Positions 1-47,469 of a DNA stretch of 47,535 bases are shown one piece after another (within the stretch, counting starts at the first letter, position 1; the number at the start of each line of letters is the position of its first letter). Position numbers and translations under genes: made by a program. The notes beneath the pieces are model-generated. The model did no database searches, was not told the origin of the DNA, and saw nothing but the letters and a program-made list of their open reading frames with translations. Source of the stretch: Fidelibacterota bacterium (GTDB lineage Bacteria > Fidelibacterota > Marinisomatia > Marinisomatales > UBA1611); assembly GCA_029936885.1 (NCBI GenBank), contig JAPYRR010000007.1:1-47535 (forward strand), given 5' to 3'.

Positions 1-441
1 ATTATTATCTCGATAAATAATGAATTCAACAGCATTTGGAGTTTTCTTCCAGTTACAATTCGCTCCGTTCTCCATATTTTTTACACTAACTTGGACTTGA
101 TCCAAGTTTGGATTCAATGTTGGATTAACATCAGAAATATTGGCCCCGCTGACAGCAAAATTCTTGGTGGCCCCATAACCGCCTTCACCATAAATATTCA
201 TGGTGTAATTACCATCAGGAATATTTCTTAATTTGAATTTTCCGCTATTTGCGGTTTCCAGTTCCACAACCTTGTTCTTATCCAAATCGTAGAGTACGAT
301 CCGGACAGGGCCAATTTTTTTACCTGCTTCGTTGAAAGTTCGCCCAGAAACGGTTACACCCTCTCCATAAACTATCGCACAAAAAAAGAATAAAATTATG
401 GGGGGAGTTACCCGGTATTTTGATTTTAATTTGATGTTCAT
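1..441 (-). CDS. Exported protein with carboxypeptidase-regulatory-like beta domain (partial, C-terminus beyond window)
   Basis: An open frame on the minus strand starts at ATG 441 and runs off the left edge without a stop (147 codons visible); the ORF track misses it because it is unterminated. The N-terminus (MNIKLKSKYR, then the hydrophobic run IILFFFCAIVYG) is a signal peptide. It is followed by VTVSGRTFNEAGKKIGPVRIVLYD and IPDGNYTMNIYGEGGYG, the usual pattern of carboxypeptidase-regulatory-like or Cna-B-type beta-sandwich modules of surface proteins. A purine-rich GAGG lies about 11 nt upstream of the ATG. The fold assignment comes from pattern recognition. The function and full length are unknown, and the protein could be a much larger surface or secreted protein. 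Confidence 0.7.
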   Translation of the reverse strand, partial: MNIKLKSKYRVTPPIILFFFCAIVYGEGVTVSGRTFNEAGKKIGPVRIVLYDLDKNKVVELETANSGKFKLRNIPDGNYTMNIYGEGGYGATKNFAVSGANISDVNPTLNPNLDQVQVSVKNMENGANCNWKKTPNAVEFIIYRDNN

Positions 442-551
442 CCCCTTTAATATCCTCGGTTAGGTTATACGCCTTTATAATAGCGGGTTAGTTTAACAGC
501 ATTCAACTCGAAAATTAAATATTCAAACAATAATAGTAAATACCTTTATCT

Positions 552-1121
552 CTATTCCTTCTCTATTTCTAACACAGCAAATTCCTGCCAAAATTGAATA
601 GAATCAGCCCATTCTTTCGAGGTGAAGTTAGCTTTTGTTCCACCTGGTTTCTCTAATTGATTTCGCATCATAGTCACTGGCCCCATTGGGATCTTTTTTA
701 TTCCTTTAGGGATAGCGTGGATACTGATTAATTCCCAATCGTCATTAGTTGAATTTTCGTTATTCTCCATTAAGACGTCATGCCTATATAGGATTAAATC
801 TAATGCAACAGTTTTCGATGGGACTCCATTCAGTACACGAGTTTGGATATAGAGATCTTCATCCACCCTTCGTTGAACTAATTTAGAAGTTAATTTCGAA
901 TGTTTATCCAATTTTATGAAGGGGCAAGCGAATTTTATAGCAAATGACTTCTCAGCATGAACAATTCGGACTCCATCTCTATATCCTTCTGAAAAATTAC
1001 CCTTTTCCATTTGTGAAAGAGCATGAGCAGCGATCGATTCAAATCCCACAGTCTCAGAATAAGTTTTTCCTGAACCTTTTACCTGACGACGAACAAAATT
1101 ATTCACTCCAACTATCATCAT
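552..1121 (-). CDS. DUF3228-like cytosolic protein of unknown function
   Basis: The gene encodes 189 aa with no signal peptide or membrane segment. The stretches YRDGV, LILYRHDVL, DDWELISIHA and PMGPVTMMRNQ, a late GGT and a C-terminal FW match my memory of the DUF3228 family, which is about this length and has no assigned activity. I could not run a profile search, so the family name is tentative. Its start overlaps the stop of the upstream hydrolase gene by four bases (1118-1121), so the two are probably translationally coupled and co-transcribed. Downstream, 110 bp of featureless AT-rich DNA separates it from the truncated exported-protein gene. No function is proposed. Confidence 0.7.
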   Translation of the reverse strand: MMIVGVNNFVRRQVKGSGKTYSETVGFESIAAHALSQMEKGNFSEGYRDGVRIVHAEKSFAIKFACPFIKLDKHSKLTSKLVQRRVDEDLYIQTRVLNGVPSKTVALDLILYRHDVLMENNENSTNDDWELISIHAIPKGIKKIPMGPVTMMRNQLEKPGGTKANFTSKEWADSIQFWQEFAVLEIEKE

Positions 1122-1843
1122 TCCTCACATAATTTATTAGAAATAAAAGAAATCGACCTATTATGCCCTAACCGTGTACCATTCCATTCCCCATCCAATT
1201 GATACAATTCACCATTCCTGATTTTAACATCCTGTGGATCATTTTCATATTTATTAAAAGCATTGTCCCGCTCATGAACAGTTTTCCATTGAATTAGTTT
1301 TGTATTTTGATTTGGTGAATATATTTCTTTTGTAAAATCACATAATTTCTGGGTTCTAGATATACCAGCCATAGGTGCTGCAATTACATGAATTGTTAAT
1401 TTTAGTTCTTCTTCCCATTTTTCTGATAGAATTGCGGAAATTAAGCCTCCATAACTATGTCCTATTACCCATAATGAATCATAATCCGTTTTTGTGGAAA
1501 AGGAAATCAAGCTATCTAATAGTTGGTTCGCGCCGCTTTCAGGGCACTGATCCCATTTCCATCTATACCAATAGAAAGGAACAGATTTACAAGTTAAATC
1601 AAGAATGGGTTGTACCCATTCTTTTCCCCGGGACCCGTATCCATGAACGAATATAATCGCAAATGATGAATCCAGACTAGAACCATATTCAATTTTATGG
1701 AAGCCCATTTCACGGTTTATTAGTAATTTTCCTGCAACATCAATGTCAACATCTGTTAAGTTATTTAACGCAATGGGCGAAGAATGAGTTGATCTACATC
1801 CAATTTCAAATAATAAAATAATTATCCATGTTGATTTTTTCAT
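1118..1843 (-). CDS. Alpha/beta hydrolase (lipase/esterase-like), probably exported
   Basis: This is a serine hydrolase of the alpha/beta fold. FVHGYG is the usual strand-3/oxyanion segment. VIGHSYGG is the GxSxG nucleophile elbow (Ser near residue 130), and LGHNRS near the C-terminus is a good candidate for the catalytic His. I prefer ATG 1843 (241 aa) over the TTG at 1873 in the track, because the protein then begins MKKSTWIIILLFEIGC, a signal peptide ending in a weak lipobox-like IGC. It is divergent from the prenol-kinase fusion at 1897 and overlaps the DUF3228-like gene by 4 nt. The substrate is unknown. A lipid or prenyl ester is possible given the neighbour, but that is inference. Confidence 0.75.
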   Translation of the reverse strand: MKKSTWIIILLFEIGCRSTHSSPIALNNLTDVDIDVAGKLLINREMGFHKIEYGSSLDSSFAIIFVHGYGSRGKEWVQPILDLTCKSVPFYWYRWKWDQCPESGANQLLDSLISFSTKTDYDSLWVIGHSYGGLISAILSEKWEEELKLTIHVIAAPMAGISRTQKLCDFTKEIYSPNQNTKLIQWKTVHERDNAFNKYENDPQDVKIRNGELYQLDGEWNGTRLGHNRSISFISNKLCEE

Positions 1844-1862
1844 GATAAAATTTACATTCTGT

Positions 1863-1891
1863 TTGAGAACCAATTAAGTCACATTTAACTT
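1863..1891 (+). promoter_or_regulatory. Weak candidate promoter for the prenol-kinase fusion gene
   Basis: TTGAGA and TAACTT are separated by 17 nt in the 53-bp divergent intergenic region. The predicted transcription start would fall almost at the ATG, giving a leaderless or near-leaderless message. The hexamers are only approximate in an AT-rich region, so this could easily be chance. Confidence 0.2.
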
Positions 1892-1896
1892 TAAGA

Positions 1897-3390
1897 ATGA
1901 TATTTCCAATTTGGATTCCCTTTCATAACGAATGGTGGACATTTTCTACATTCCTTTTTATAATTCTCGGATTTGTAGGGTTTAGTGATCTCTCACTCAA
2001 AAAAGGATGGATTTCTCCAGAAGCGAACCGTAAATGGGTCCATTGCCTGGTTGGATTATCTGTAGCAATATCTCCCCTAATTTTTTCTACAAATCTTCAG
2101 CCAATAGCTTTATCATTCATATTTATTATTTTAAATACAGTCGCTATTAAAAAAGAAATATTCAAAGGTATTCACAGTCAAAGTAGAATTACCTACGGAA
2201 CAGTGCTTTTCCCTTTTGCTTATTTAATCCTAGTACTTACATTTTGGACATACCCCGAATTCCTGATTATTTCATTACTTATTTTAGCTATATCGGATCC
2301 GTTGGCTACTCAAGTTGGACAAGACACACCCAAACAATCAAAATTTAAAATATGGGAAGATGAAAAATCATTTAAAGGATCCATAGCATTCTTTACCAGC
2401 TCATTCATTATAATCTATTTGAGTACTCACTTTCTGTTTGATTATTCTTTTATTTATCTTTTTGGAATTTCTCTTTTTACCGCTTCGGGTGCCACGATTG
2501 CTGAAGCAACAAGTTGTAAAGGCACGGACAATGTATCGATCCCCATTGTGAGCATCCTATTTTTGATTGGGTTTCAAGACAATTTCATTATCAATAGTGA
2601 TTTGCAATCTCAAATCGCTTTTAACATCTATTGTATAAGTTTAGTAATTATCATTTTTTCAATTGCTTATAAATTTAAATCTCTCAGCTTGAGCGGCTAT
2701 TTTGGCGGATTAATTATGGGAATAATAATTATATTATTCGGTGGGTGGTTTTATTTATATCCAATTTGTGTATTTTTCATCCTTTCTTCTATTTTAAGTA
2801 AAATAGTAAAAAAGACATCAAGTTTTAAAACAAAAGAGGCTAATCGAGATATCATACAGGTTTATTCAAATGGTGGAATCGGTTTGATTATTTGCATTTT
2901 TGATTATTTTTCAGATCCAAATTTATATATAATCCCAATATATTTAGCTTCAATTGCAGCTGCCACAGCAGATACGTGGGGAACGGAATTTGGTAAATAT
3001 TCTAAAAAGCGACCTGTCTCCATTTATAATTTCAAAACTATTGACCATGGCATGTCAGGTGGAATTACACTAATTGGGTCAATTGGTTCACTATTAGGTG
3101 CTAGTGTAATAGCGTTTGCTGTTTGGCTTTTTTCTCCAATATCTAATAGTATCCTATTCGCTATTATATTTATAGGTTTTTTGGCCTCTCTTTTTGATTC
3201 ATTACTTGGTGCAACTGTCCAAGCAAAATATGAGACTCAATTTGGAGAGATTATTGAAATTCAAGAAAATGGAGCCACCTTAATTTCAGGCTATAAATGG
3301 CTAAACAATGATATGGTAAATTTGTTGAATACCGCATTCGCACCCATTCTAATGGTTCTGTACTTAATTTTATTCAATACTCCATTATAA
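1897..3390 (+). CDS. Fused VTE5-like prenol (phytol/dolichol-type) kinase and VTE6/DUF92-like prenyl-phosphate kinase, membrane protein
   Basis: A 497-aa polytopic membrane protein with two recognisable halves. Residues about 1-225 carry the dolichol/phytol-kinase pattern: RKWVH (45-49), ISDPLA (132-137), KSFKGS (157-162), AEA (202-204) and DNVSIP (211-216). Residues about 255-497 carry the DUF92/TMEM19 pattern: GGLIMG near 270, ATADTWGTE (356-364), HGMSGG (384-389) and DSLLGATVQ (434-442). In plants VTE5 phosphorylates phytol and the DUF92 protein VTE6 phosphorylates phytyl-phosphate. A fusion would therefore convert a free isoprenoid alcohol to its diphosphate in two steps at the membrane, feeding quinone or lipid prenylation. 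The domains are seen in the sequence; the natural substrate (phytol, geranylgeraniol or farnesol) is not known. It converges on the DUF350 gene across a shared terminator. Confidence 0.78.
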   Translation: MIFPIWIPFHNEWWTFSTFLFIILGFVGFSDLSLKKGWISPEANRKWVHCLVGLSVAISPLIFSTNLQPIALSFIFIILNTVAIKKEIFKGIHSQSRITYGTVLFPFAYLILVLTFWTYPEFLIISLLILAISDPLATQVGQDTPKQSKFKIWEDEKSFKGSIAFFTSSFIIIYLSTHFLFDYSFIYLFGISLFTASGATIAEATSCKGTDNVSIPIVSILFLIGFQDNFIINSDLQSQIAFNIYCISLVIIIFSIAYKFKSLSLSGYFGGLIMGIIIILFGGWFYLYPICVFFILSSILSKIVKKTSSFKTKEANRDIIQVYSNGGIGLIICIFDYFSDPNLYIIPIYLASIAAATADTWGTEFGKYSKKRPVSIYNFKTIDHGMSGGITLIGSIGSLLGASVIAFAVWLFSPISNSILFAIIFIGFLASLFDSLLGATVQAKYETQFGEIIEIQENGATLISGYKWLNNDMVNLLNTAFAPILMVLYLILFNTPL

Positions 3391-3417
3391 ATAAATCACT
3401 GATCTTAATAAATGAAA

Positions 3418-3451
3418 AAGCCTCCCCAAAAACTGGGAAGGCTTATTTTTT
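3418..3451. terminator. Bidirectional intrinsic terminator
   Basis: The arms AAGCCTCCC and GGGAAGGCTT pair with one bulged A around a 7-8 nt loop (3418-3444). They are followed on the plus strand by ATTTTTT. On the minus strand the hairpin is followed by TTTTTCA. It sits between the convergent genes 1897-3390 (+) and 3471-3707 (-), where a two-way terminator is expected. Confidence 0.85.
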
Positions 3452-3470
3452 AAGGGAATGTTAAAGTGAT

Positions 3471-3707
3471 TTAGATCACTTTATGGACAAGTAATCCAAC
3501 CATGACGATCAGAGAAACAAAGATCAAGGCAACACCCATATTCCCTTTTTTAATCTCTTCCCATTCATCAATTTCTGTGGATAGCATGTCAAAAACCTTT
3601 AACGCAATTCCGATGCCAAAAGCAAAGCCCACCGCCGCAGTAATAGACCACCCAACAGCGCGGGCGTATTGTGTTAAAATTCCCATAAGTGAATTAGGAT
3701 CAGGCAT
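3471..3707 (-). CDS. DUF350-family small membrane protein
   Basis: The gene encodes 78 aa with two hydrophobic segments (about residues 17-39 and 58-76) separated by DEWEEIKKGNMGVAL. The E-x-x-K-GN-x-x-A(A/V) pattern before the second segment is typical of DUF350/YjfL-like inner-membrane proteins, whose role is unknown. A good Shine-Dalgarno AGGAG sits 7-8 nt before the ATG and overlaps the end of the upstream gene, ten bases away. It is the last gene of the minus-strand run hutI - exported protein - DUF350, just before the bidirectional terminator. Assignment is by motif only. Confidence 0.75.
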   Translation of the reverse strand: MPDPNSLMGILTQYARAVGWSITAAVGFAFGIGIALKVFDMLSTEIDEWEEIKKGNMGVALIFVSLIVMVGLLVHKVI

Positions 3708-3717
3708 AGTAAACTCC

Positions 3718-4152
3718 TTATTGTATTTCCATTTTTATTTTTTGCATGAAATCGGATGAATCCATTGTTCCATTGGCTAGGTCAATGGCCATTTGCTTCG
3801 AACATGTGGCTATAAACATATTGGTTTCACCCTTTGATATTGGAACTGCAACATTAACCACCACAGTTTCCGGTGTATAAGCATTTGATTTACCCATTTG
3901 AATTTGATGCTCAATTGCTTGTCCTGCCGCAGCAAAACCGATAAGCATTACCATTTCAAAATTATTCCGTCCACTCTCAAGTTCAATTGAAAATTCGTTC
4001 TCTCCAAGGGAATAATTGGATGATTCGACAGTAATACGGTAAGATTGACAAACTGTTTTAACTTTCTTTTTAAAAGCATAATTGCCTAAAAGACCGTCTG
4101 TACCGACCAAAAGCGCGAAAAGCGCAATAAATAGAATTCGTGTTGATTGCAT
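3718..4152 (-). CDS. Small exported or membrane-anchored protein of unknown function
   Basis: I do not recognise this protein. The track starts at GTG 4194. I prefer ATG 4152 (144 aa) because it places a signal-like segment, MQSTRILFIALFALLVGTDGLLG, at the N-terminus. A hydrophobic stretch, FEMVMLIGFAAAGQAI, follows mid-protein. Two cysteines (in TVCQSY and ATCSKQ) could pair if the protein is exported. The motif TPETVVVNVAVPISKGETN suggests a beta-rich domain. Neither start has a strong ribosome-binding site. It lies between hutI (10-52 nt upstream, depending on start) and the DUF350 gene (10 nt downstream), so all three are likely one transcript. Confidence 0.65.
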   Translation of the reverse strand: MQSTRILFIALFALLVGTDGLLGNYAFKKKVKTVCQSYRITVESSNYSLGENEFSIELESGRNNFEMVMLIGFAAAGQAIEHQIQMGKSNAYTPETVVVNVAVPISKGETNMFIATCSKQMAIDLANGTMDSSDFMQKIKMEIQ

Positions 4153-4203
4153 CGTTCTGTTCAAAATGTTCGGCGGGATTTTACACCACCTCACGACGGA
4201 GAA

Positions 4204-5412
4204 TCAAGGAGTAAATAGGATTTCTCCATTTTTAATGACAGTTTGAATAGGATGGTCAGAAACGAGATAAGGAATCTGTAATGTACGCTCAATATCCCAA
4301 ACAACTATATCTGCTTTTTTCCCAATTTCGATGGATCCAATTGTGTTATGTAATAGCAAAGATTTAGCAGACGTGATTGTGGCTGCTTTGATGGCATCCA
4401 AGACGGGGATCTTCATATAAATACAAGACAAAGATAAAATAAAGGGCATGGATTGGATATGGCAACTTCCAGGATTAAAGTCAGTGGCTAACGCAACATC
4501 TACACCAGCATCCTTCAATTTTTGATAGGGCGCATATCCGGTTTTCCCCAAAAAGAAAGTAGTTCCGGGTAGTAAAGTTGCAATCACGTCATTTTTAGCC
4601 AATTCTTGGATACCCTCATCGCTCACAGCCATTAAATGATCAGCGGAGATGGAACCGCACTCTCCTCCTAATTTTCCTGCACCAGAATCTTCAAATTCGT
4701 CAGCATGAATCCTTGGTATCAAACCATGATTATTCCCCGCATTGAGTATGCGTCGAGTCTGTTCAACCGTGAAGTAACCATTCTCACAAAATACATCATT
4801 GAACTTGGCGATGCCTTGATCAGAGACAGCCGGAATCATTTCTTCACAAATCAAATCTACATATCCATCATGATTATTCATGAATTCCTTAGGGAAAGCA
4901 TGCCCTCCCATAAATGTTGGAATCATGTCAATATGATGAAGCTTACTTACTTCATCAATCACTTTAAGTGATTTCAATTCGGACTCTAAATTTAAACCAT
5001 ATCCGCTTTTGCATTCTACTGTTGTTGTACCTAGTTTTAGGAAGCGGTCCATTCGGCTTTTAACCAGTGAAATAAGGTCTGATTCGGATGCATCTCTTAC
5101 CCCTTGGATACTATTTACAATCCCACCGCCTGCTTCAGAAATTTCTTCATAGCTTGCACCTTGAAGCCGCATAGCAAACTCATCTTCCCGCCCATCTAAA
5201 AAGACTGGATGCGTATGGGGATCCACAAATCCCGGTGTAACGAGTTTTTGTTTACAATCAAATATTTTGTCAGCATCACCGAGCTTCTGCCCCACTTCTG
5301 TGATTTGATTTCCTTCAATGACTATTTCAACATTTTCGAGAATGGCCATGTCATTCATTTCTGAATTAAAAGTAGCTAATTGACCGATATTGGTGAGTTT
5401 TAATGAATACAA
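4204..5412 (-). CDS. hutI: Imidazolonepropionase (histidine degradation)
   Basis: HutI hydrolyses 4-imidazolone-5-propanoate to N-formimino-L-glutamate, the third step of histidine catabolism in the cytosol. The 402 aa match the family length. VDPHTHPVF (metal ligands His66 and His68), FMGGHAFP, HADEFEDSG, SADHLMAVS and LATDFNPGSCH are the amidohydrolase-superfamily metal and substrate motifs. The start at 5412 is TTG without a visible Shine-Dalgarno. The first ATG (Met19) would delete the first beta strand (YSLKLTNIGQLATF), so TTG is kept. It lies 27 nt downstream of vapC rather than next to hutU, and is followed closely by two small genes. Confidence 0.95.
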   Translation of the reverse strand: MYSLKLTNIGQLATFNSEMNDMAILENVEIVIEGNQITEVGQKLGDADKIFDCKQKLVTPGFVDPHTHPVFLDGREDEFAMRLQGASYEEISEAGGGIVNSIQGVRDASESDLISLVKSRMDRFLKLGTTTVECKSGYGLNLESELKSLKVIDEVSKLHHIDMIPTFMGGHAFPKEFMNNHDGYVDLICEEMIPAVSDQGIAKFNDVFCENGYFTVEQTRRILNAGNNHGLIPRIHADEFEDSGAGKLGGECGSISADHLMAVSDEGIQELAKNDVIATLLPGTTFFLGKTGYAPYQKLKDAGVDVALATDFNPGSCHIQSMPFILSLSCIYMKIPVLDAIKAATITSAKSLLLHNTIGSIEIGKKADIVVWDIERTLQIPYLVSDHPIQTVIKNGEILFTP

Positions 5413-5439
5413 AATTATTATTTTTTAAAATGAAAAGAT

Positions 5440-5814
5440 TTACGAATATCTTTCATCATAATGCAAAATGGAACTTAATTTTTTGTCGAAAGTCCACAAT
5501 TGACATCCTCTTTCTCGTGCATACAAAAGAATAGAACAGTCAATTAGCCCTACCCCTTTATTAAACCATTGGTTTTTTCCCGATTGCAATCCCGCTGAAA
5601 AGAAACTTCCATCTGTGGTGAATTTTGGCAAATTAAACCAATAATTCGAAACTATGTCCCGTTCCCTATTATTCTTAACACCTTGAAGCAATTCACCAAA
5701 AACGGGTTCAAATGCAAGAATTTCATTTTTTTCGAGTAGAGATTTCAGTTTCGGGTAAATGGATGAATTCCCTCTTAAGAATTCTATCCAAACCGATGTA
5801 TCAACAACTATCAA
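5440..5814 (-). CDS. vapC: PIN-domain ribonuclease toxin, VapC type
   Basis: The 124 aa have the PIN fold's acidic residues in their standard places: Asp5 in VDTSVWIEFLRG, Glu41 in FGELLQG, Asp92 in LIDCSILLYAR and Asp110 in LWTFDKKL. All four Mg-binding carboxylates are intact, so it should be an active endoribonuclease; VapC toxins usually cut initiator tRNA or rRNA. The start is TTG, overlapping the antitoxin stop as TTGA (4 nt), which couples toxin synthesis to the antitoxin. hutI follows 27 nt downstream, so the toxin transcript may read through into hutI. The family call is firm. The target is unknown. Confidence 0.88.
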   Translation of the reverse strand: MIVVDTSVWIEFLRGNSSIYPKLKSLLEKNEILAFEPVFGELLQGVKNNRERDIVSNYWFNLPKFTTDGSFFSAGLQSGKNQWFNKGVGLIDCSILLYARERGCQLWTFDKKLSSILHYDERYS

Positions 5815-6023
5815 GTTCGATTGGTTTTGCGAACTGATTCTGAACTAAACCCGGATTTAAATTCTAAAGGCTTTTCAGCAATTTGTAAATTTAATTCTTT
5901 GACTTTTTGATGGGCAACCCATTCAGACAAAGCTTTTATTAAGGATTCTGTAATATTTTTCCCTTGGGTCAAGTCTTTTACTTCGGAAACAAGTTTATCA
6001 GGTATTAATGCAGTAACTTTCAT
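5811..6023 (-). CDS. vapB: VapB-type antitoxin
   Basis: The gene encodes 70 aa. The N-terminal MKVTALIPDKLVSEVKDLTQGKNITESLIKALSEW has the short beta strand plus two helices of a ribbon-helix-helix DNA-binding domain. The basic, polar C-terminal tail (EKPLEFKSGFSSESVRKTNRT) is the kind of disordered segment that wraps the toxin active site. It precedes and overlaps vapC by 4 nt, the usual antitoxin-first order. A perfect 7-bp inverted repeat lies only 9-27 bp upstream of the ATG and is a natural autoregulatory operator. No Shine-Dalgarno is visible, so the message may be leaderless. Confidence 0.82.
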   Translation of the reverse strand: MKVTALIPDKLVSEVKDLTQGKNITESLIKALSEWVAHQKVKELNLQIAEKPLEFKSGFSSESVRKTNRT

Positions 6024-23434: not shown

Positions 23435-24625
23435 TTATTCAGTAATTGATGTTACAACACCAGCGCCAACAGTATGACCGCCTTCACGGATTGCAAATCG
23501 AAGCTCTGTATCCATAGCGATAGGTGTAATTAATTCAACATTAAATTCTACATTATCACCCGGCATGACCATTTCTGTTCCACTTTCAAGTGTGACAACA
23601 CCGGTTACGTCTGTTGTACGAAAATAGAACTGAGGACGATACCCATTAAAAAAGGGGGTATGACGACCGCCTTCTTCTTTCTTCAAGATATAGACACTGG
23701 CTTTAAACTTTGTATGCGGTGTAATACTTCCGGGCTTGGCTAAAACCATACCACGACCTAAGTCATCTTTATCAACACCCCGAAGAAGCAATCCTGCATT
23801 ATCGCCAGCTCGACCTTCATCCAAAAGCTTCCTGAACATTTCTATACCAGTGACTGTGGTCTTTGTATCTTTACCCATTCCAAGTATAGAGATTTCATCA
23901 CCTACTTTAACAATTCCACGTTCAATTCGGCCTGTCCCAACCGTTCCACGACCTGTAATGGAAAAAACATCCTCAACAGGCATTAAGAAAGGTTTATCCA
24001 CATCACGTTTTGGTTCCGGGATAAAGGTATCACATGCTTCCATAAGGTCCACAATGCATTGATTAGCGGCTTCATCTCCAGGAGAATTCAACGCATTCAG
24101 TGCCGATCCTTTAATGATGGGTGTATCATCACCCGGAAAATCATATTCATTCAATAAATCACGAAGCTCCATTTCAACCAGTTCTATTAATTCTTCATCA
24201 TCTACCTGATCTGTCTTATTCATAAAGACAACCATAGAAGGAACATTCACCTGCTTAGCCAAGAGCACATGCTCACGGGTTTGAGGCATAGGACCATCTG
24301 CTGCAGATACAACCAGAACGGCACCATCCATCTGAGCTGCTCCTGTAATCATATTTTTGATATAGTCAGCGTGACCGGGACAATCCACGTGAGCATAATG
24401 ACGGTTTTCTGTCTCATACTCTACGTGAGCGGTCTGAATCGTAATACCACGCTCTCGTTCTTCCGGGGCATTATCAATACTATCAAATGGCATTGCCTCA
24501 GCAAAACCACGGGCGCTCTGCACCATGGTAATTGCTGCTGTCAATGTGGTCTTTCCATGATCCACGTGACCAATCGTACCGATGTTCACGTGGGGTTTCG
24601 TTCTTTTAAATTTTTCTTTTGCCAT
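23435..24625 (-). CDS. tuf: Elongation factor Tu (copy upstream of rpsJ)
   Basis: EF-Tu carries aminoacyl-tRNA to the ribosome as a GTP complex. The 396 aa have [11 protein letters not shown] (P-loop), RGITI (switch I), DCPGHADY (switch II) and NKTD (guanine specificity), then domains II and III ending [12 protein letters not shown]-like (here [16 protein letters not shown]). The stop is TAA. From the second base of that stop codon upstream, the sequence is the same as the copy at 38944. It follows fusA by 24 nt and precedes rpsJ by 9 nt. The start is ATG. Confidence 0.98.
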
Positions 24626-24649
24626 TTTTATACTCCAAAGATGTATTTA

Positions 24650-26740
24650 TTAAGAGGCTTTTCCATGTACTTTTTCCAGAATCTCAGTTTCGATACTGGT
24701 TGGTACTTGTTGATATTTTGCAAATTCCATATGAAAAACAGCCCGGCCTTGCGTTATAGATCTAAGATCTGTTACATAGCCAAACATTGCACTTAGTGGA
24801 ACAAATGCCCTTACAACCTGAGCCTGATTACGCTGCTCCATTCCTTCTATTTTCCCTCGGCGTGAGCTTAAGTCCCCCATAACATCGCCTAGGTATTCAT
24901 CGGGGACAATAACTTCAACTCTCATGATTGGCTCCATCAATTTTGGCGATGCTTTTTTACAAGCATCTTTAATTGCCATAGATCCCGCAATTTTAAAAGC
25001 CATTTCCGATGAATCAACATCATGATAAGATCCAAATACGAGTTCAACACGAATATCTTCAATTGGATACCCGGCAATTACACCATTTTTAATAGCTTCT
25101 TTCATACCTGCATCAACCGATGGGATATATTCACGAGGAATAACCCCACCAACAATTTTATTTTCAAAATGATACCCCTTCCCAGGATCATTCGGCTCAA
25201 CATTAATAACGACGTGACCATATTGACCGCGGCCACCAGACTGTCGAACAAATTTCATTTCTACATTAGATACGGCCTTGGTAATAGATTCGCGATATGC
25301 GACCATAGGCATTCCAATATTTGCCCGAACCTTAAATTCACGAAGGAGTCGATCAACTAATATTTCTAAATGTAATTCACCCATTCCAGCAATAATAGTT
25401 TGCCCAGTTTCTTCATCCGTTGAAACACGAAATGTCGGGTCTTCTTCACCCAATTTCTGGAGCCCTCTTGACAACGTATCTTGATCTCCCTTACTTACTG
25501 GTTCTACAGATACAGCCACAACGGGTTCTGGGAAATCCATCGACTCTAGAATAATTTGGTTTTTTTCATCACAAAGCGTATGCCCTGTTTTTACGCGCTT
25601 AAGTCCAATCGCAGCAACAATTTCACCCGTAGAGACACTTTCTCTTTCTTCACGCTTATTGGAATGCATGAGCAATATACGCGAGATTCTTTCTCGTTTG
25701 CCCGATGTTGGATTATAAACATAGGATCCAGCTTTTAACTTTCCAGAATAAACTCTCATATAAGTTAGCTTTCCAACAAATGGATCAGTCATAATTTTAA
25801 AAGCAAGCGCACTAAATGGAGAATCATCACTAGGTTCACGCTTCAATAAAACATCTGAATCACGAGGATCGGTTCCTGTAACAATACCAACATCAAGAGG
25901 TGAAGGTAAAAGATTTACCACCGCATCTAATAATCGCTGCACACCTTTATTTTTGAATGCAGAACCACATAGAGTTGGAATAAAAGTATTATCTATACAC
26001 CCTTTTCTGATTGCTGCTTTTAATTCATCTATAGAAATCTCTTCATCTGAAAGATATTTTTCCATCAGATGCTCATCATAGGTAGCTGTCTCTTCAATAA
26101 GATGATGACGCCATTTATCAGCTTCTTCCTGCATATCCGCAGGAATGTCGCCATATTCAAAATGTGAGCCCATAGAACTTTCATTGTAGAGGATTGATTT
26201 CATCTCCAATAAATCAATGATCCCCGTAAACATTTCGCCCGAACCAATGGGTATAACCAAAGGTAATGGAGCAGCTCCCAACCGGTCTTTAATCATTTTA
26301 ACAACATTAAAAAAGTCAGCACCCACTCGATCCATTTTATTCACAAATGCAATTCGAGGAACATTATATTTATCAGCCTGACGCCAAACTGTTTCGCTTT
26401 GAGGCTCCACACCTCCAACTGCACAAAAAACTCCTACAGCACCATCTAATACCCTAAGAGACCTTTCAACTTCAACAGTGAAATCAACATGCCCAGGCGT
26501 ATCAATAATATTGATTCGATGATCATCCCAAATACAAGTTGTTGCAGCAGATGTAATTGTAATTCCACGCTCTTGCTCTTGTTCCATCCAATCCATAGTT
26601 GCAGCGCCATCATGAACTTCACCAATACGGTGAGTACGACCTGTATAAAACAGAACTCGTTCTGTCAAGGTTGTTTTTCCAGCATCAATGTGGGCCATTA
26701 TGCCAATATTTCTTACATGATCTAATTTTGTATGCTTCAA
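24650..26740 (-). CDS. fusA: Elongation factor G
   Basis: EF-G is the GTPase that drives ribosomal translocation and, with RRF, recycling. The 696 aa contain [22 protein letters not shown] (P-loop), [37 protein letters not shown], and the domain IV/V segments [28 protein letters not shown] and [10 protein letters not shown]. The start codon is TTG (26740) with no clear Shine-Dalgarno; the N-terminus [17 protein letters not shown] fits family length, and the next ATG would remove the G1 strand. It follows rpsG by 21 nt. Confidence 0.97.
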
Positions 26741-26761
26741 AGTACTATTCTAATTCAATTA

Positions 26762-27226
26762 TTAACGAAAATGAGCAAATGCTTTATTTGCGTCTGCCAT
26801 GCGATGGGTATCATCTTTCTTCTTGACTGCCCCGCCTTCACCGTTTGCAGCTGAGATTAATTCTGTTGCTAATTTTTCAGACATGGGTTTTCCAGATCGT
26901 CCACCTGCTGCATTTATAATCCACTGTGATGCGAGATAAAAACGACGATTTTTAGGCACTTCAATTGGCACCTGATACGTTGCACCACCAATTCTTCGAG
27001 ATTTGACCTCAACGGATGGAGATGTGTTTTCAATTGCCTTTTCAAAAATCTTTAGCCCGTCCGATTTGGTGCGTTGTTTAATTAAATCCATTGCACCATA
27101 AAAAATCTTTTCAGCTATACCTTTTTTGCCTTGCACCATGACATAGTTAACAAATTTTGCAACTAGTTTATCATTATACACAGGATCTGGTAATATTTGT
27201 CTATGTTCTGGTCGTCTACGTCTCAT
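26762..27226 (-). CDS. rpsG: 30S ribosomal protein S7
   Basis: S7 nucleates the 30S head and contacts E-site tRNA; in E. coli it can repress the str operon. The 154 aa start [41 protein letters not shown], with [25 protein letters not shown] and the C-terminal [16 protein letters not shown]. It follows rpsL by 17 nt and precedes fusA by 21 nt. The start is ATG. Confidence 0.98.
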
Positions 27227-27243
27227 ATCTAATTTTAATATTT

Positions 27244-27615
27244 TTACTTAGGCTTTTTCGCCCCATAACGGGAACGACTTGTTTTACGGTCACTCACTCC
27301 TGCAGTGTCCAATGTACCTCTTATAACATGATATCGAACACCAGGTAAATCTTTTACACGCCCCCCTTCAATAAGAACAATACTATGCTCTTGGAGATTA
27401 TGGCCTTCTCCAGGAATGTAAGCCGCAACTTCCATCCCATTAGTTAACCTAACACGTGCGACTTTTCTAAGCGCTGAGTTCGGTTTTTTAGGCGTTGTTG
27501 TGTACACACGTGTGCACACCCCACGTTTTTGGGGGTTGCTCATAAGTGCCGGCGTGCTTGTTTTCTTTAAAACACGTTTCCGGCCTTTGCGAACTAATTG
27601 ATTTATCGTCGGCAT
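27244..27615 (-). CDS. rpsL: 30S ribosomal protein S12
   Basis: S12 lies at the decoding centre. The 123 aa contain [21 protein letters not shown] and [32 protein letters not shown]. Both lysines whose replacement gives streptomycin resistance in E. coli (in PKKPNS and [10 protein letters not shown]) are the wild-type residue, so a drug-sensitive allele is expected. The gene follows an 80-nt gap after rpoC, the largest in the super-operon, where a weak promoter may sit. The start is ATG. Confidence 0.98.
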
Positions 27616-27637
27616 ATCGTTTTATCCAAAGCCTATA

Positions 27638-27667
27638 AAATTACGAAATATTTTGAAAATACTGCAA
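27638..27667 (-). promoter_or_regulatory. Weak candidate internal promoter for the rpsL-rpsG-fusA-tuf segment
   Basis: On the minus strand, TTGCAG and TAATTT are separated by 18 nt within the 80-bp rpoC-rpsL gap. The spacer contains a 13-bp inverted repeat, TATTTTCAAAATA. The start site would give a leader of about 15 nt. The hexamers are partial matches only. Confidence 0.25.
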
Positions 27668-27695
27668 TAGTCATTTGATTTATTTTCATTTAATT

Positions 27696-30600
27696 TTACG
27701 CGACTGCGTCTTCAAGTAAAGAGTCTGAATCATCGTCATTTTCGTGGACTCCAACAAGTATATCTCTAATACCTGGAGTACCAGTTCCAGCAGGGATCAG
27801 TTTTCCAACCGCAACATTTTCCTTTAATCCCAGTAAATAATCTGTTTTACCCGCAGTGGAAGCGTCCGTTAGCACACGAGTAGTTTCTTGGAAAGACGCT
27901 GCAGATATAAAACTTTCTGTATTTAAAGAAGCTCGTGTTATTCCCATCAAAATTGGCTCAAAAGTTGCCGGTTTTGTTTTTCGATAGGTAGCTACTACCA
28001 TCCCACTAAGTTTCAACTCCTTATTGATCTCAAGAAATTCAGAACGATCAATCATGGTTTCTGATTCCAAATCTGAATCACCCACCTTATCTACAATTAC
28101 CATTTTTGAGATTCTTTCATTCTCTGAAAAGAACTCTTTTTTAGAGATTTTATCCTCTTCAAGAAACCATGTGTCACCCGTATCTTTCACGCTTACTTTT
28201 AACATCATCTGGCCCACAATAACTTCAATATGCTTATCATTAATCTTCACGCCTTGGAGACGATAAACTTCCTGTATTTCATTTACTAGATAATCTCTTA
28301 CTGCTGCAGGTCCTAGGACATGTAAAATATCATTAGGAGAAATCGCGCCTTCACAGAGATTTGTTCCAGCATTAACAAAGTCCCCTTCATGCACGATAAC
28401 ATGTTTTCCATAAGGAATTGAGTATGTTCTTTCTTCTCCATCACTCCCCATAACATGAATCTTTCTTACGCCCCGTTTTGTATCACCAAACCGGACATTA
28501 CCATTGATCTCTGACATTACAGCAGGGTTTGATGGTTTCCGAGATTCAAATAATTCCGCGACTCGCGGTAGTCCACCTGTAATATCTCGAGTTTTACCCA
28601 CATCTTTAGGGATCTTAACTAAGGTTTGCCCACGTTCAACAGATTTTTTATCTGTTACAACTAATGTTGCCTTAACTGGGAGAATAGTTCCACCAGCTAA
28701 AATTTTTCCTTTTTTATCGACAATTTCAATATGTGGGCTAAGTTTCCTGTCTCGCGCCTCTACAACAACCATCTGTTTTTTACCGCCTTCTACAGATTCT
28801 ACAGCGTAAGTATCACCTTCAATAAAATCCTTCAATGAAACTAAACCTGTTTCACGCGCTAAAATGATATCCGTATATGGATCCCATTGAATTAATGTAG
28901 TTTTTGCTGGAATTTCATCACCTTCATTTACAAAGACAGTTGATCCATAAGGAACATTAAATGAAGCATTTTGCTTATCGTCCTTATCTAGAATAAAGAG
29001 TTTTGCATGACGAACCATACATCGTCGAACCTTAGTACCTGCTTCATCAATTGTATCTGCAAAATCGTAATTATCAGAGAAATTTACTCTACCAGGTCGT
29101 TTTGTGACCATTTCAGATTGCTCAATAATTCGAGTAGCAGTACCCCCAATATGAAAAGTACGCAATGTTAACTGCGTACCGGGCTCACCAATACTTTGAG
29201 CAGCACGAATACCGACAGCGGTTCCAATATCAACTAATTGATGAGTTGATAGATCCCAACCGTAACATTTTGCACAACATCCACGTTTTGCTTCACAAGT
29301 TAGGATAGACCGGATACGAACATTTTCAACACCACTATCTCCAATCAATTCAGATTCTTCTTCTTCAATGACCGCTCCAGCTTTTACAACAACTTTCCCT
29401 TTCACAATAAAGTCATCAAGTATGGTTCTTCCTAATATTCGGTCAGCTAAAGGCTCTATAATCTCTTCGCCTTCTTTTAAATCTGCAATAAGAATACCAT
29501 TAATTGTGTTACAATCAGTAATATACACAACCACGTCTTGAGCAACATCCACAAGACGACGTGTTAAATATCCTGCATCAGCTGTTTTCAATGCAGTATC
29601 AGCTAATCCTTTCCGAGCTCCGTGAGTCGAAATAAAATATTCAAAAACGGACAATCCTTCTTTAAAGTTTGATGTAATGGGAGATTCAATGATTTCACCC
29701 ACACCGCCTTTCATAGACTTTTTTGGTTTAGCCATTAATCCACGCATCCCCGCTAACTGCTTAATCTGATCTTGAGAACCACGTGCACCGGAATCCGCCA
29801 TCATATATACGGGATTAAATCCATTACGATCTTTTTTTAATGAATCCATCATCGAACCAGCCACACGATTGGTTGCATGTGTCCAAATATCAATGACCTT
29901 ATTATATCTTTCACCATCGGTTAAGATATGACGATCAAATTTGCTTTTTATTTCATCAACTTTAACCTGTGCTTCATTAAGGATTTCATCTTTCCGATCA
30001 GGTATTAAAATATCGCTTATTGCAATCGACACACCACTGATAGTTGCTATTTTGAATCCGAGATCCTTTAATTTATCCAATAAAAGGACAGTTTGATAAT
30101 TTCCTGTAAGCAAATATGCATTGTTTACAACTTGGGTTAATTTCTTTTTATTAATGACTTCATTAACGAAATCTAAGTTTTCTGGGAGGACTGAATTAAA
30201 GATTATTCGCCCAACAGTTGTATTTTTAATCCATTTCCCATTATAACGTACATTTACAATCGCATGGAGGCCTACAGCTTTATTTTCATAAGCCAATACA
30301 CCTTCTTCAATGGAACTAAATAATTTCCCTTCGCCCTTGTCGCCTTCTTTTGGACAAGTCAAATAGTAACATCCCAATACCATATCCTGAGAAGGGACAG
30401 CAATGGGTTGACCATTTGCTGGATGGAGAATATTATGACTAGCCAACATGAGCATCCTTGATTCCATTTGTGCTTCCAAAGAAAGCGGAACGTGAACGGC
30501 CATTTGGTCACCGTCAAAGTCAGCATTAAAAGCTGAACAAACTAATGGGTGCAATCGGATTGCTTTACCATCTACAAGAACAGGCTGAAATGCCTGAATC

Positions 30601-31943
30601 CCTAATCTATGAAGAGTAGGTGCACGATTGAGAAGGACAGGATGGTCTTCTACAACATATTCTAAAACTTTATATACAACCGGCTCACGGTTTTCGACCA
30701 TGAGTTTTGCACTTCTTGGTGTTTGGGTATAACCGCGTGCCATCAGTTCATGAATCATATGTGGCTTGAATAATTCGAGTGCCATATTTTTAGGCAATCC
30801 ACATTCATGAAGTTTCAAGCTCGGCCCAACAACAATTACGGAACGACCGGAATAGTCAACTCTTTTTCCAAGTAAATTTTGACGAAATCGACCAGTTTTT
30901 CCACGAAGCATATCGGAAAGCGATTTCAATGGACGTCGAGAGCCACTACGAATTGCAGTTTTCCGTCTATTATTATCAAATAAAGCATCAACAGCTTCCT
31001 GAAGCATCCGTTTTTCATTTCTTAAAATGACGTCAGGAGCATTTATTTCCATTAATTGCTTGAGGCGATTATTACGAATAATGATCCGTCGATATAAATC
31101 GTTCAAATCAGAAGCTGCAAACCGACCACCTTCCAGTGGTACCAAAGGACGTAATTCGGGGGGAATTACAGGTAAAATTGAAACAATCATCCATTCAGGT
31201 TTATTTAAACGCTTTTTAGTTGGATCAGGTACGAAGGATTGAACAACTTTCATACGCTTTAAGGCATCTGCTCTTTTTTGCTTCGATTTGGATGTTTTAA
31301 CAATATCCACCAATTCTTTTTTCAAATCGGGAATGCTCATCCGAGAAAGCATTTCTTTCATGGCTTCGCCACCCATGGTCGCATAAAAATAATTTTCATT
31401 ATCTCTATCTTCCTCTGAAACGGCCATATAACCATGCTGTTGCTCAATTTCAAGGTATTCATCTTCATCAATCATTTGAAAAGGCTCTAACCCACTTCCA
31501 CCCGGCTCAATAACCATAAACATTTCATAATAAATGACACGCTCAAGCTCTTTGGTACTTTTGCCCGAAAGATAACTTATTTTACTTGGGATAGATCGAA
31601 GATACCAAATGTGAACAACAGGTACAGCAAGAGTAATATGACCCATGCGTTGGCGTCGAACCTTTTTACGAGTTACCTCTACGCCACAACGGTCACAAAT
31701 AATTCCACGGTAACGGATACCTTTATATTTACCGCAATGACATTCATAGTCTTTGACCGGTCCAAAGATCTTTTCACAAAAAAGACCATCTTTTTCTGGT
31801 TTATAGGAACGGTAATTAATTGTCTCCGGTTTTAGGACCTCGCCGTAAGAACGAGCAAGAATCATTTCTGGAGACGCTAATCCAATTGTGATTGAACTAA
31901 ATGATTTTGATGTGTCAATACTGGTTGATTGAATGTAAGTCAA
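27696..31943 (-). CDS. rpoC: DNA-directed RNA polymerase subunit beta-prime
   Basis: Beta-prime holds the catalytic Mg site of RNA polymerase. The 1415 aa are in one piece. The N-terminal zinc site is CHCGKYKGIRYRGIICDRCGV (Cys68, 70, 83, 86). The active-site motif is NADFDGDQM. The trigger-loop and bridge-helix region includes SGARGSQDQIKQLAGMRGLM, and the second zinc site includes CEAKRGCCAKCYG. The start is TTG (31943) with GGGAG 8 nt upstream; the first ATG would cut off the conserved ITIGLASPE segment. The C-terminus is acidic (ENDDDSDSLLEDAVA). It follows rpoB by 17 nt. Confidence 0.98.
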   Translation of the reverse strand: MTYIQSTSIDTSKSFSSITIGLASPEMILARSYGEVLKPETINYRSYKPEKDGLFCEKIFGPVKDYECHCGKYKGIRYRGIICDRCGVEVTRKKVRRQRMGHITLAVPVVHIWYLRSIPSKISYLSGKSTKELERVIYYEMFMVIEPGGSGLEPFQMIDEDEYLEIEQQHGYMAVSEEDRDNENYFYATMGGEAMKEMLSRMSIPDLKKELVDIVKTSKSKQKRADALKRMKVVQSFVPDPTKKRLNKPEWMIVSILPVIPPELRPLVPLEGGRFAASDLNDLYRRIIIRNNRLKQLMEINAPDVILRNEKRMLQEAVDALFDNNRRKTAIRSGSRRPLKSLSDMLRGKTGRFRQNLLGKRVDYSGRSVIVVGPSLKLHECGLPKNMALELFKPHMIHELMARGYTQTPRSAKLMVENREPVVYKVLEYVVEDHPVLLNRAPTLHRLGIQAFQPVLVDGKAIRLHPLVCSAFNADFDGDQMAVHVPLSLEAQMESRMLMLASHNILHPANGQPIAVPSQDMVLGCYYLTCPKEGDKGEGKLFSSIEEGVLAYENKAVGLHAIVNVRYNGKWIKNTTVGRIIFNSVLPENLDFVNEVINKKKLTQVVNNAYLLTGNYQTVLLLDKLKDLGFKIATISGVSIAISDILIPDRKDEILNEAQVKVDEIKSKFDRHILTDGERYNKVIDIWTHATNRVAGSMMDSLKKDRNGFNPVYMMADSGARGSQDQIKQLAGMRGLMAKPKKSMKGGVGEIIESPITSNFKEGLSVFEYFISTHGARKGLADTALKTADAGYLTRRLVDVAQDVVVYITDCNTINGILIADLKEGEEIIEPLADRILGRTILDDFIVKGKVVVKAGAVIEEEESELIGDSGVENVRIRSILTCEAKRGCCAKCYGWDLSTHQLVDIGTAVGIRAAQSIGEPGTQLTLRTFHIGGTATRIIEQSEMVTKRPGRVNFSDNYDFADTIDEAGTKVRRCMVRHAKLFILDKDDKQNASFNVPYGSTVFVNEGDEIPAKTTLIQWDPYTDIILARETGLVSLKDFIEGDTYAVESVEGGKKQMVVVEARDRKLSPHIEIVDKKGKILAGGTILPVKATLVVTDKKSVERGQTLVKIPKDVGKTRDITGGLPRVAELFESRKPSNPAVMSEINGNVRFGDTKRGVRKIHVMGSDGEERTYSIPYGKHVIVHEGDFVNAGTNLCEGAISPNDILHVLGPAAVRDYLVNEIQEVYRLQGVKINDKHIEVIVGQMMLKVSVKDTGDTWFLEEDKISKKEFFSENERISKMVIVDKVGDSDLESETMIDRSEFLEINKELKLSGMVVATYRKTKPATFEPILMGITRASLNTESFISAASFQETTRVLTDASTAGKTDYLLGLKENVAVGKLIPAGTGTPGIRDILVGVHENDDDSDSLLEDAVA

Positions 31944-31960
31944 AGTTAGTACTCCCTGGG

Positions 31961-34900
31961 TTAATCCAGTTCTACATCAATGCAAAGACCTTGAAGTTCT
32001 TTGATCATTACATTGAAAGATTCAGGTGATGAGAATTCAGGCATTTGTTCGCCGCGAACGATTGAGTTATAGACTTTTGATCGGCCTTCAACATCATCGG
32101 ACTTCACGGTTAATAACTCATGAAGTGTATGAGCTGCACCATAAGCCTGCAGAGCCCAAACTTCCATTTCACCTAAACGCTGTCCACCAAATTGAGCTTT
32201 TCCACCCAATGGTTGTTGCGTTATAAGTGAATAAGGCCCCGTTGAACGCGCATGCATTTTATCGTCAACCATATGGCTCAATTTCAACATATAAATGTTT
32301 CCAATTGTAACCGGATTGTCAAAGTACTCACCGGTTATACCATCGATTAAACGAGCTTTACCTGATTGGGGAAGACCTGCTTTCTCAAGTTCTTTCAAAA
32401 CATCATCAGGTGTAGCACCATCAAATACTGGTGTTGCAAATTTTTGTCCAGTGACTTCGCCAACCCATCCAAGCATGGTTTCATATAATTGCCCCAAGTT
32501 CATCCGAGATGGTACACCCAACGGATTTAAGACAATATCTACGGGGGACCCATCTTCCATAAACGGCATATCTTCTTCTGGAACGATTGTCGCAACGATA
32601 CCTTTGTTACCATGGCGACCGGCCATTTTATCACCCACTGAAATTTTTCGCTTTTGAGCGACAAAGACTTTAGCCAATTTTAAAATCCCGGGTTGGAGTT
32701 CATCACCGATTCGAAGTTTGAAAATCTCACGTTCAAGATTTGTTTCAATTCGAGCCCACTCTTCCCTAAAAGATCGCCAAACAGCTTTAATCTTTTTCCA
32801 GACTGCAACATCTTCAATCCAAGATTCGTCTTGTGCAAAACGCTCCATGTCGAAGCTGTTTATTCTCTTTAAAGTAAGTGTGGTGGATTTTTTAATCAGG
32901 GTTTTTTCTGATGATAAATCACGGATACCGTTTGAAATCTGATCTTTCAATAAATTTGTCAGTTTTTCGTCTCGGGATGCTTTTAATAGTTTTTTTGATT
33001 CTCCAGCATTTTTTTGAAATAGAAGGATCTGTTCTCGCTCTTCTTTTTTAGTTCTTTTTGCCTGTTTTTCAAAAAGTTGTGTTTTAATAACCACTCCTCT
33101 TATTCCAGGTTCAGCTTTTTTAGAAGCATCTTTTACTTCTCCAGCTTTTTCACCAAAAATTGCTCTCAGAAGTTTTTCTTCTGGTGTAGGATCTGTTTCA
33201 CCTTTCGGCGTTACTTTCCCGATCAGGATATCTCCTTCTGCAACACGTGCACCTACACGAATTATACCGGATTCATCCAGATCTTTTGTCGCTTCTTCGC
33301 TCACATTTGGAATTTCAGGAGTCAATTCTTCTTGACCACGTTTCGTATCACGAACTTCAAGTTCAATTTCATTACAATGAACTGAACTGAGAATGTCATC
33401 CTTTACCAATCTTTCACTGATAACAATAGCATCTTCAAAATTGTAACCTCTCCAAGGCATAAATGCCACACGGATATTAGATCCTAATGCTAGTTCACCA
33501 TTTTCAGTTGCAGCACCATCAGCTATAACATCGCCTTCCTTAACTTGTGTTCCCTGGCTAATAATGGGTCTTTGGTTATGAACAGTATTTTGATTCGTTC
33601 TCTTAAATTTCTTGAGTTTGATTTCGACTATATTTTCACCTTCGAAGAGAGCCAATGAATCCATCACATCCTTGCGTTTGATAAGGATTTTTTCAGAATC
33701 AACATAAGTAATTCTTCCTGCGACAGGAGATGCAACAGCGGATCGTGAATCAACAGCTACCTTAGCTTCAATGCCTGTACCAACAATGGGCGCTTGCGGC
33801 TTCATCAATGGAACGGCTTGGCGTTGCATATTTGATCCCATTAATGCACGGTTAGCATCATCATGCTCTAAAAAAGGAATTAATGCGGCAGCGACACTCA
33901 AAATCTGATTTGGAGATACCTCAACAAAATTCACATCACCAGGACTTACCATTGGAAAATCACCTTTAACACGTGCTCGGATTTTTTCTTGAATCAATTT
34001 ACCCTTTTCGTCTCTTTCTGTTGATGCCTGTGCAACAAGCACACGATCTTCATCATCAGCAGATAGGTATTGGATCTTATTGGTAACAACGGAGTCACCT
34101 AATAGCTTCCGAACCTTACGATAAGGCGATTCAATAAAACCATGATCATTTACCTCTGCAAACATTGCTAATGATGAAATCAATCCAATGTTTGGACCCT
34201 CAGGTGTTTCAATAGGACAAAGACGTCCATAATGAGTATAGTGAACATCCCTAACCTCGAAACCGGCTCTTTCACGAGTCAACCCACCAGGCCCAAGTGC
34301 AGAAATACGTCTTTTATGAGTGATTTCAGCAAGTGGATTAGTTTGATCACCAAATTGAGAAAGCTGCGATGTTCCAAAGAATGTATTAATCACAGTTGTT
34401 ACAACACGAGAATTAATTAAATCCTGTGGTGTAATACTTTCGGACTCACGCAAATTCATTCTTTCATGAATTGTACGTATCATTCTACTCAATGCAACAC
34501 TGAATTGGTTGGTTAATTGCTCTCCAATGGTTTTTACGCGACGATTTCCGAGATGGTCAATATCGTCAACACCTCTTTCGCCCTTGCGCATTTCAATTAG
34601 AAAATTTATCACCTGAATAATATCATCCATGGTTAAGACGGTATCTTCTACTGGAACATCCAAATTAAATTGCTGATTTAAGCGGTAGCGCCCAACTTGA
34701 CCAAGGTCATATTTTTTAGGGCTAAAGAAAATCCTCTCAATAAATTTTTGAGCTGTTTCCAGATTCGGCGGCTCACTTGCACGTATAAGTTGATATACGG
34801 CAGCCAATGCTTCCTCTGTACTACGAGTTGGATCTTTTTCTATTGTATTTAATAGCAACATTGAATGGAAGTTTTTATTTCCATCTACTACATGTATTTC

Positions 34901-38943: not shown

Positions 38944-40134
38944 CTATTCAGTAATTGATGTTACAACACCAGCGCCAACAGTATGACCGCCTTCACGGAT
39001 TGCAAATCGAAGCTCTGTATCCATAGCGATAGGTGTAATTAATTCAACATTAAATTCTACATTATCACCCGGCATGACCATTTCTGTTCCACTTTCAAGT
39101 GTGACAACACCGGTTACGTCTGTTGTACGAAAATAGAACTGAGGACGATACCCATTAAAAAAGGGGGTATGACGACCGCCTTCTTCTTTCTTCAAGATAT
39201 AGACACTGGCTTTAAACTTTGTATGCGGTGTAATACTTCCGGGCTTGGCTAAAACCATACCACGACCTAAGTCATCTTTATCAACACCCCGAAGAAGCAA
39301 TCCTGCATTATCGCCAGCTCGACCTTCATCCAAAAGCTTCCTGAACATTTCTATACCAGTGACTGTGGTCTTTGTATCTTTACCCATTCCAAGTATAGAG
39401 ATTTCATCACCTACTTTAACAATTCCACGTTCAATTCGGCCTGTCCCAACCGTTCCACGACCTGTAATGGAAAAAACATCCTCAACAGGCATTAAGAAAG
39501 GTTTATCCACATCACGTTTTGGTTCCGGGATAAAGGTATCACATGCTTCCATAAGGTCCACAATGCATTGATTAGCGGCTTCATCTCCAGGAGAATTCAA
39601 CGCATTCAGTGCCGATCCTTTAATGATGGGTGTATCATCACCCGGAAAATCATATTCATTCAATAAATCACGAAGCTCCATTTCAACCAGTTCTATTAAT
39701 TCTTCATCATCTACCTGATCTGTCTTATTCATAAAGACAACCATAGAAGGAACATTCACCTGCTTAGCCAAGAGCACATGCTCACGGGTTTGAGGCATAG
39801 GACCATCTGCTGCAGATACAACCAGAACGGCACCATCCATCTGAGCTGCTCCTGTAATCATATTTTTGATATAGTCAGCGTGACCGGGACAATCCACGTG
39901 AGCATAATGACGGTTTTCTGTCTCATACTCTACGTGAGCGGTCTGAATCGTAATACCACGCTCTCGTTCTTCCGGGGCATTATCAATACTATCAAATGGC
40001 ATTGCCTCAGCAAAACCACGGGCGCTCTGCACCATGGTAATTGCTGCTGTCAATGTGGTCTTTCCATGATCCACGTGACCAATCGTACCGATGTTCACGT
40101 GGGGTTTCGTTCTTTTAAATTTTTCTTTTGCCAT
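38944..40134 (-). CDS. tuf: Elongation factor Tu (copy upstream of rpmG)
   Basis: The protein is identical to the EF-Tu at 23435. The only difference at this end is the stop codon, TAG here and TAA there; after that the 3' flanks differ completely (rpmG versus rpsJ). The 3' half is therefore a real second tuf locus, as in many bacteria with tufA and tufB. Whether fusA truly lies upstream of this copy is doubtful, because a tufB gene usually follows tRNA genes or a promoter. Confidence 0.93.
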
Positions 40135-40158
40135 TTTTATACTCCAAAGATGTATTTA

Positions 40159-42249: not shown

Positions 42250-42270
42250 AGTACTATTCTAATTCAATTA

Positions 42271-42735
42271 TTAACGAAAATGAGCAAATGCTTTATTTGC
42301 GTCTGCCATGCGATGGGTATCATCTTTCTTCTTGACTGCCCCGCCTTCACCGTTTGCAGCTGAGATTAATTCTGTTGCTAATTTTTCAGACATGGGTTTT
42401 CCAGATCGTCCACCTGCTGCATTTATAATCCACTGTGATGCGAGATAAAAACGACGATTTTTAGGCACTTCAATTGGCACCTGATACGTTGCACCACCAA
42501 TTCTTCGAGATTTGACCTCAACGGATGGAGATGTGTTTTCAATTGCCTTTTCAAAAATCTTTAGCCCGTCCGATTTGGTGCGTTGTTTAATTAAATCCAT
42601 TGCACCATAAAAAATCTTTTCAGCTATACCTTTTTTGCCTTGCACCATGACATAGTTAACAAATTTTGCAACTAGTTTATCATTATACACAGGATCTGGT
42701 AATATTTGTCTATGTTCTGGTCGTCTACGTCTCAT
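42271..42735 (-). CDS. rpsG: 30S ribosomal protein S7 (repeat copy)
   Basis: Identical to the S7 gene at 26762 in sequence, start and spacing. Bacteria seldom keep two S7 genes, so this copy is suspect as a separate locus. It is intact as read. Confidence 0.85.
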
Positions 42736-42752
42736 ATCTAATTTTAATATTT

Positions 42753-43124: not shown

Positions 43125-43204
43125 ATCGTTTTATCCAAAGCCTATAAAATTACGAAATATTTTGAAAATACTGCAATAGTCATTTGATTTATTTTCATTT
43201 AATT

Positions 43205-47452: not shown

Positions 47453-47469
47453 AGTTAGTACTCCCTGGG

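Follow-up and report, generated by a model that had tools for sequence, protein, structure and literature searches.

A SEC59/VTE5-like Domain Fused to DUF92: A Putative Bifunctional Prenol Kinase in Fidelibacterota and Other FCB Bacteria

The Locus

The DNA considered here (the window) is a stretch of 47,535 nucleotides from a member of the Fidelibacterota whose genome assembly comprises 1.71 Mb and is 87% complete. Close to the left end of the window, on contig C6 of our genome set, is an ORF on the plus strand (1897..3390) that starts with ATG and encodes a 497-residue protein with 16 predicted long helices. The frame has no internal stop across its 497 codons; when window positions 1-6000 were shuffled 200 times by mononucleotide, the longest run without a stop was 167 codons. 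The G+C content of the gene is 32%, compared with 38% for the window. The protein is made up of two halves, an N-terminal domain (1897..2592, plus strand, residues 1-232) that resembles the SEC59 and VTE5 kinases of the CTP-transferase superfamily and a C-terminal DUF92/COG1836 domain of the VTE6 type (2611..3387, plus strand, residues 239-497).

The gene is flanked on one side by a divergent α/β-hydrolase-like ORF and a DUF3228 gene and on the other by convergent small ORFs and hutI. A G+C-rich, terminator-like hairpin (3418..3444), a pattern match called on the minus strand only, lies where the fused gene and its downstream neighbors converge.

The window also contains a perfect direct repeat of 8,591 bases (23436-32026 and 38945-47535), the second copy of which ends exactly at the end of the window. 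Its ORFs of 396, 696, 154, 123 and 1415 amino acids are tuf-, fusA-, rpsG-, rpsL- and rpoC-like by size and order only, and the assembly seems to have looped here through a duplicated tuf gene.

Distribution of the Fusion

A first search of the contigs with the single protein sequence gave no match, and a query built from an alignment succeeded. A match to the fused protein was found in 42 of 61 genomes chosen by kinship, mostly as one frame across both halves, with some broken by contig ends. It is present in 16 of the 24 near-complete close relatives, and no match was found among the listed reduced genomes of family f15. Within the phylum (Neomarinimicrobiota/SAR406, or Fidelibacterota), a profile search recovered both halves in one match in at least 142 of 245 genomes. 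GTDB representative genomes yielded 580 candidate stretches with coding sequence related to at least part of the query; 80 of these loci were kept, and 75 of them have one open frame across both halves. By their record titles, fused loci come from Neomarinimicrobiota, Calditrichota, KSB1, Ignavibacteria and Bacteroidota, so the sequence-only reading, which had raised the question of how widespread the fusion is, is answered by a common architecture that extends to other FCB phyla.

That reading had also named an assembly error or an indel joining two genes as the finding that would undo a single-protein fusion. Fused orthologues, end to end, exist in dozens of independent assemblies, and assembly error is therefore ruled out. 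An artefact of assembly or sequencing is the most remote of the explanations considered, with next to no probability: the loop-like repeat on the same contig could be taken to favor it, but this repeat is 20 kb away from the fused gene, and both halves are spanned in most of the matching relatives and in nearly all of the loci kept, which stem from many projects.

At two loci (L048 and L059) the fused gene is interrupted by a stop or a shift of frame and reads as two ORFs, reflecting either a pseudogene or a sequencing error. One genome carries two full-length fused copies (G121:C29 and G121:C39).

A Family with DUF92 Alone

In the five genomes of family f25, which belongs to the phylum, DUF92 stands alone and a distant SEC59-like protein is encoded elsewhere. 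The lone DUF92 gene (L121-L124) is flanked by addA- and addB-like genes, names that were given from the look of the proteins only. The fused gene sits between genes of the same two kinds at loci L050 and L041. In a tree of the DUF92 halves, the f25 proteins form one group among the fused ones. The nodes that nest them are moderately supported and the root is arbitrary, and secondary loss of the N-terminal half in f25 is for this reason likely rather than demonstrated.

The N-Terminal Half

Twelve residues of the N-terminal half are invariant in 36 sequences: R45, H49, G101, D134, A137, G141, K157, G161, E203, G209, D211 and N212. Several of these fall in a segment resembling a CTP site, SDPLATQVG...EDEKSFKGS (2293..2382, plus strand, residues 133-162). 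The CTP motif of dolichol kinases has been described as DxxAxxxGxxxGx8KKTxEG (PMC5853391). Its DxxAxxxG and K[ST]xxG elements occur in 36 of 36 N-terminal halves, while the full motif is not present: the second glycine of GxxxG is replaced and the spacing before KS/KT is longer than x8.

The sequence-only reading had named a missing profile hit for either half as a finding against it, and for this half a hit is seen only through its relatives. The N-terminal half of the window protein itself matches no Pfam or NCBIfam model, but PF01148 (CTP_transf_1) is matched by 13 of the 36 orthologous halves, the best at 6e-8. A profile of the N-terminal half finds the CdsA of the same genome at E 2.5e-5, and hhalign pairs this profile with ten stand-alone SEC59-like proteins of the phylum at 99.8% probability and E 4.6e-28; these ten were gathered with the N-half profile itself and are called SEC59-like by the motif pattern D..A...G / KS..G / DN..IP only. 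Shared motifs and superfamily membership thus suggest a domain of the SEC59/VTE5 kind. The genome of the window also encodes a separate, stand-alone SEC59-like paralogue of 198 amino acids (L144:1318-1911, on G000:C34).

The C-Terminal Half

The assignment of the second half to DUF92, made earlier from its motifs, holds up well: PF01940 matches residues 249-481 at 2.6e-60, with 204.3 bits against a cut-off of 27.5. The window protein falls below the cut-off of the TIGR00297 model (110-118 bits against 205.85), as does a stand-alone DUF92 protein of the phylum (134.5 bits). The core of the domain, ADTWGTE...GMSGG (2968..3063, plus strand, residues 358-389), corresponds to the pattern ADTW..E and GxSGG, with D359, T360, W361, E364, G385 and G388 invariant in 36 sequences. 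All of the motifs picked out from the sequence were found at their expected residues, namely SDPLA at 133, KSFKGS at 157, DN at 211, ADTWGTE at 358 and GMSGG at 385, and the predicted active-site residues are intact in both halves.

A zinc-ribbon-like C..C...HC loop is found in the DUF92 half of 60 of 76 fused orthologues (alignment A2). The loop is missing from the window protein and from those close to it; its site would follow Q442, at about 3220-3290 of the window.

Predicted Structure

AlphaFold2, supplied with 76 sequences, predicts one confident protein (mean pLDDT 94.3, pTM 0.93) with 16 long helices, eight per half. When modelled alone, the N-terminal half has the same secondary structure as in the full model. 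A Foldseek search with the N-half model against the PDB ranks CdsA (4q2e, 4q2g) first, although not significantly (E 0.13, TM 0.3). The full model has no significant match in the PDB or a viral library by Foldseek, and sequence searches of the PDB with full, N-half and C-half profiles gave no true relative. In a direct comparison by hhalign, the two halves pair at 3% probability and E 0.014, with the D134 and D359 motifs aligned opposite each other; a common origin of the halves is not established.

Genome Context and Possible Users of the Product

Clustering of 720 neighboring ORFs in relatives revealed no conserved isoprenoid neighbor of the fused gene. Most of its neighbors lie on the other strand, and they are unrelated (hutI, DUF3228, addA/addB-like).

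Elsewhere in the genome, a PcrB/GGGPS-family gene is split at two contig ends (G000:C11:7471-7818 and G000:C105:16-360); the translations of the pieces overlap, and the gene is intact in G003, a genome of the same genus. The best NCBIfam model for the UbiA protein of the genome is GGGP geranylgeranyltransferase, below cut-off, and a protein of the geranylgeranyl-reductase family scores over its cut-off. In Cloacimonetes, another FCB phylum, a GGGP synthase made GGGP in vitro (PMC7852524). Given this activity and the GGGPS-family, UbiA and reductase genes, users of a C20 prenyl diphosphate in this organism are plausible. A true CdsA is encoded separately (G000:C83).

No co-occurrence was seen between the fused gene and GGGP synthase (35/7 vs 15/4, p = 0.73), and UbiA, present in 61 of 61 genomes, is uninformative. 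The fused gene does co-occur with geranylgeranyl reductase (p = 0.006 in 61 genomes, 0.007 in the 24 genomes at least 90% complete, and 0.046 when two reduced genomes are left out), an association that is only suggestive, as the p-values are uncorrected for kinship or for the several families tried.

Proposed Function

In plants, VTE5 turns phytol into phytyl-P, from which VTE6 forms phytyl-PP, and geranylgeraniol and its phosphate are also accepted (PMC13415981). The plant first step is CTP-dependent, and the second takes CTP, GTP, UTP or ATP (PMC9782597). From these and the archaeal relatives we infer both reactions and the donor: the fused protein is probably a membrane-embedded, bifunctional prenol and prenyl-phosphate kinase that converts free isoprenoid alcohols of C15-C20 to their diphosphates in a salvage route, likely with CTP. 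The N-terminal half would phosphorylate the free alcohol, most likely geranylgeraniol, phytol or farnesol, probably taking the phosphate from CTP, and the C-terminal half would add a second phosphate to give a prenyl diphosphate usable by prenyltransferases. The monophosphate may pass between the two sites, and the diphosphate may feed GGGP synthase, UbiA or menaquinone-type enzymes; a chain length of C20 is presumed. The patchy presence of the gene among near-complete relatives, together with its absence from the listed reduced f15 genomes, fits salvage, not an essential step. Of what had been read from the sequence alone, two domains of the prenol-kinase type in one polypeptide stand, with catalytic-type residues invariant in both halves, while phytol as substrate, channelling and active salvage are conjectural. 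The kinase reading is favored by the DUF92 match far above its cut-off, the ties of the N-terminal half to PF01148 and to stand-alone SEC59-like proteins, the invariant residues, the wide retention of the fusion and the single confident fold. Points against it are the lack of a conserved isoprenoid neighbor and of co-occurrence with GGGP synthase, the incomplete dolichol-kinase CTP motif and the insignificant structural match to CdsA. No biochemistry was found for any bacterial fusion in a search of the literature.

It is possible, although rather unlikely, that the protein is instead a long-chain polyprenol kinase of the dolichol or undecaprenol type, the N-terminal half of which recycles polyprenol to the phosphate for glycan carriers, with the DUF92 half acting on the same pool. 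The SEC59/dolichol-kinase character of the N-terminal half agrees with this, as does the reported linkage of uppS, encoding undecaprenyl diphosphate synthase, to archaeal DUF92 genes (PMC5898192). However, recycling of a carrier phosphate needs no second phosphorylation to the diphosphate, the stand-alone SEC59-like protein of the same genome could do the polyprenol recycling, and the substrates of plant VTE6 are C20 (PMC13415981).

Since substrate specificity is unreadable from sequence, a lipid kinase outside prenol metabolism also has to be weighed, such as a CTP-dependent diacylglycerol kinase with a DGK1-like N-terminal half and a DUF92 half that acts on another lipid phosphate. Yeast DGK1 belongs to the CTP-transferase superfamily, which also includes CdsA, the protein reached by the N-half profile. 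The DUF92 partner makes this unlikely: its sole known activity is the phosphorylation of prenyl phosphates, by plant VTE6, and the partners in fusions usually share a pathway.

The prenol and prenyl-phosphate kinase reading could be extended to a channelling enzyme by which SAR406 and other FCB bacteria turn phytol or geranylgeraniol from the environment into isoprenoid ether lipids of the archaeal, G1P-linked type. Candidates for GGGPS, a DGGGPS-like enzyme and geranylgeranyl reductase are encoded in the genome, and if the extension were true, marine bacteria would build part of their membrane from the side chains of algal chlorophyll; we consider it improbable. More generally, to judge by how widely the fusion occurs in SAR406, salvage of isoprenoid alcohols may be common among marine FCB bacteria.

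Comparison with Known Systems

Plant VTE5 and VTE6 are of the same domain types and act as successive kinases to give phytyl or geranylgeranyl diphosphate. In the plastid they are distinct proteins that serve the synthesis of tocopherol and phylloquinone, whereas here a single bacterial protein is found, in a host without known tocopherol synthesis. The dolichol kinases SEC59 and DOLK belong to the same superfamily and share DxxAxxxG and K[ST]xxG with the N-terminal half, but the fused protein differs from them in the missing second glycine of GxxxG, the longer spacing before KS/KT and the attached DUF92 domain. CdsA, the CDP-diacylglycerol synthase (PF01148; PDB 4q2e, 4q2g), is also of this superfamily; unlike the reaction proposed for the N-terminal half, it transfers CMP, not phosphate.

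According to a review of farnesol and geranylgeraniol salvage, polyprenol kinases and polyprenyl-phosphate kinases have been firmly assigned to only a few genes, all of them in photosynthetic organisms (PMC9782597). One bacterial protein with both domain types would permit a single-protein test of the pathway.

The closest counterpart is archaeal and was described by Makarova, Galperin and Koonin. In Methanosarcina, a Sec59-like domain is fused to COG1836, and a role as an isoprenoid kinase was predicted (PMC5898192, 2015); phytol-phosphate metabolism had been predicted for COG1836 in 2011 (PMC3223725). The architecture is consequently already known from archaea and mostly ordinary. As far as can be judged from the published description, Mbar_A3310 of Methanosarcina barkeri (arCOG02245/COG1836; PMC5898192) and the fusion described here are alike in having both domains, in the same order, Sec59-like and then COG1836, and in the conserved catalytic aspartates of the two. 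A bacterial fusion was found described nowhere in our literature search, and earlier bacterial reports may exist. The breadth of the architecture in FCB bacteria and the f25 family with DUF92 alone in a comparable addA/addB locus are modest additions to this picture. The archaeal protein is uncharacterized, while in SAR406 and other FCB bacteria the same architecture is common, and the fusion adds support to the functional link that has been published for the two domain families.
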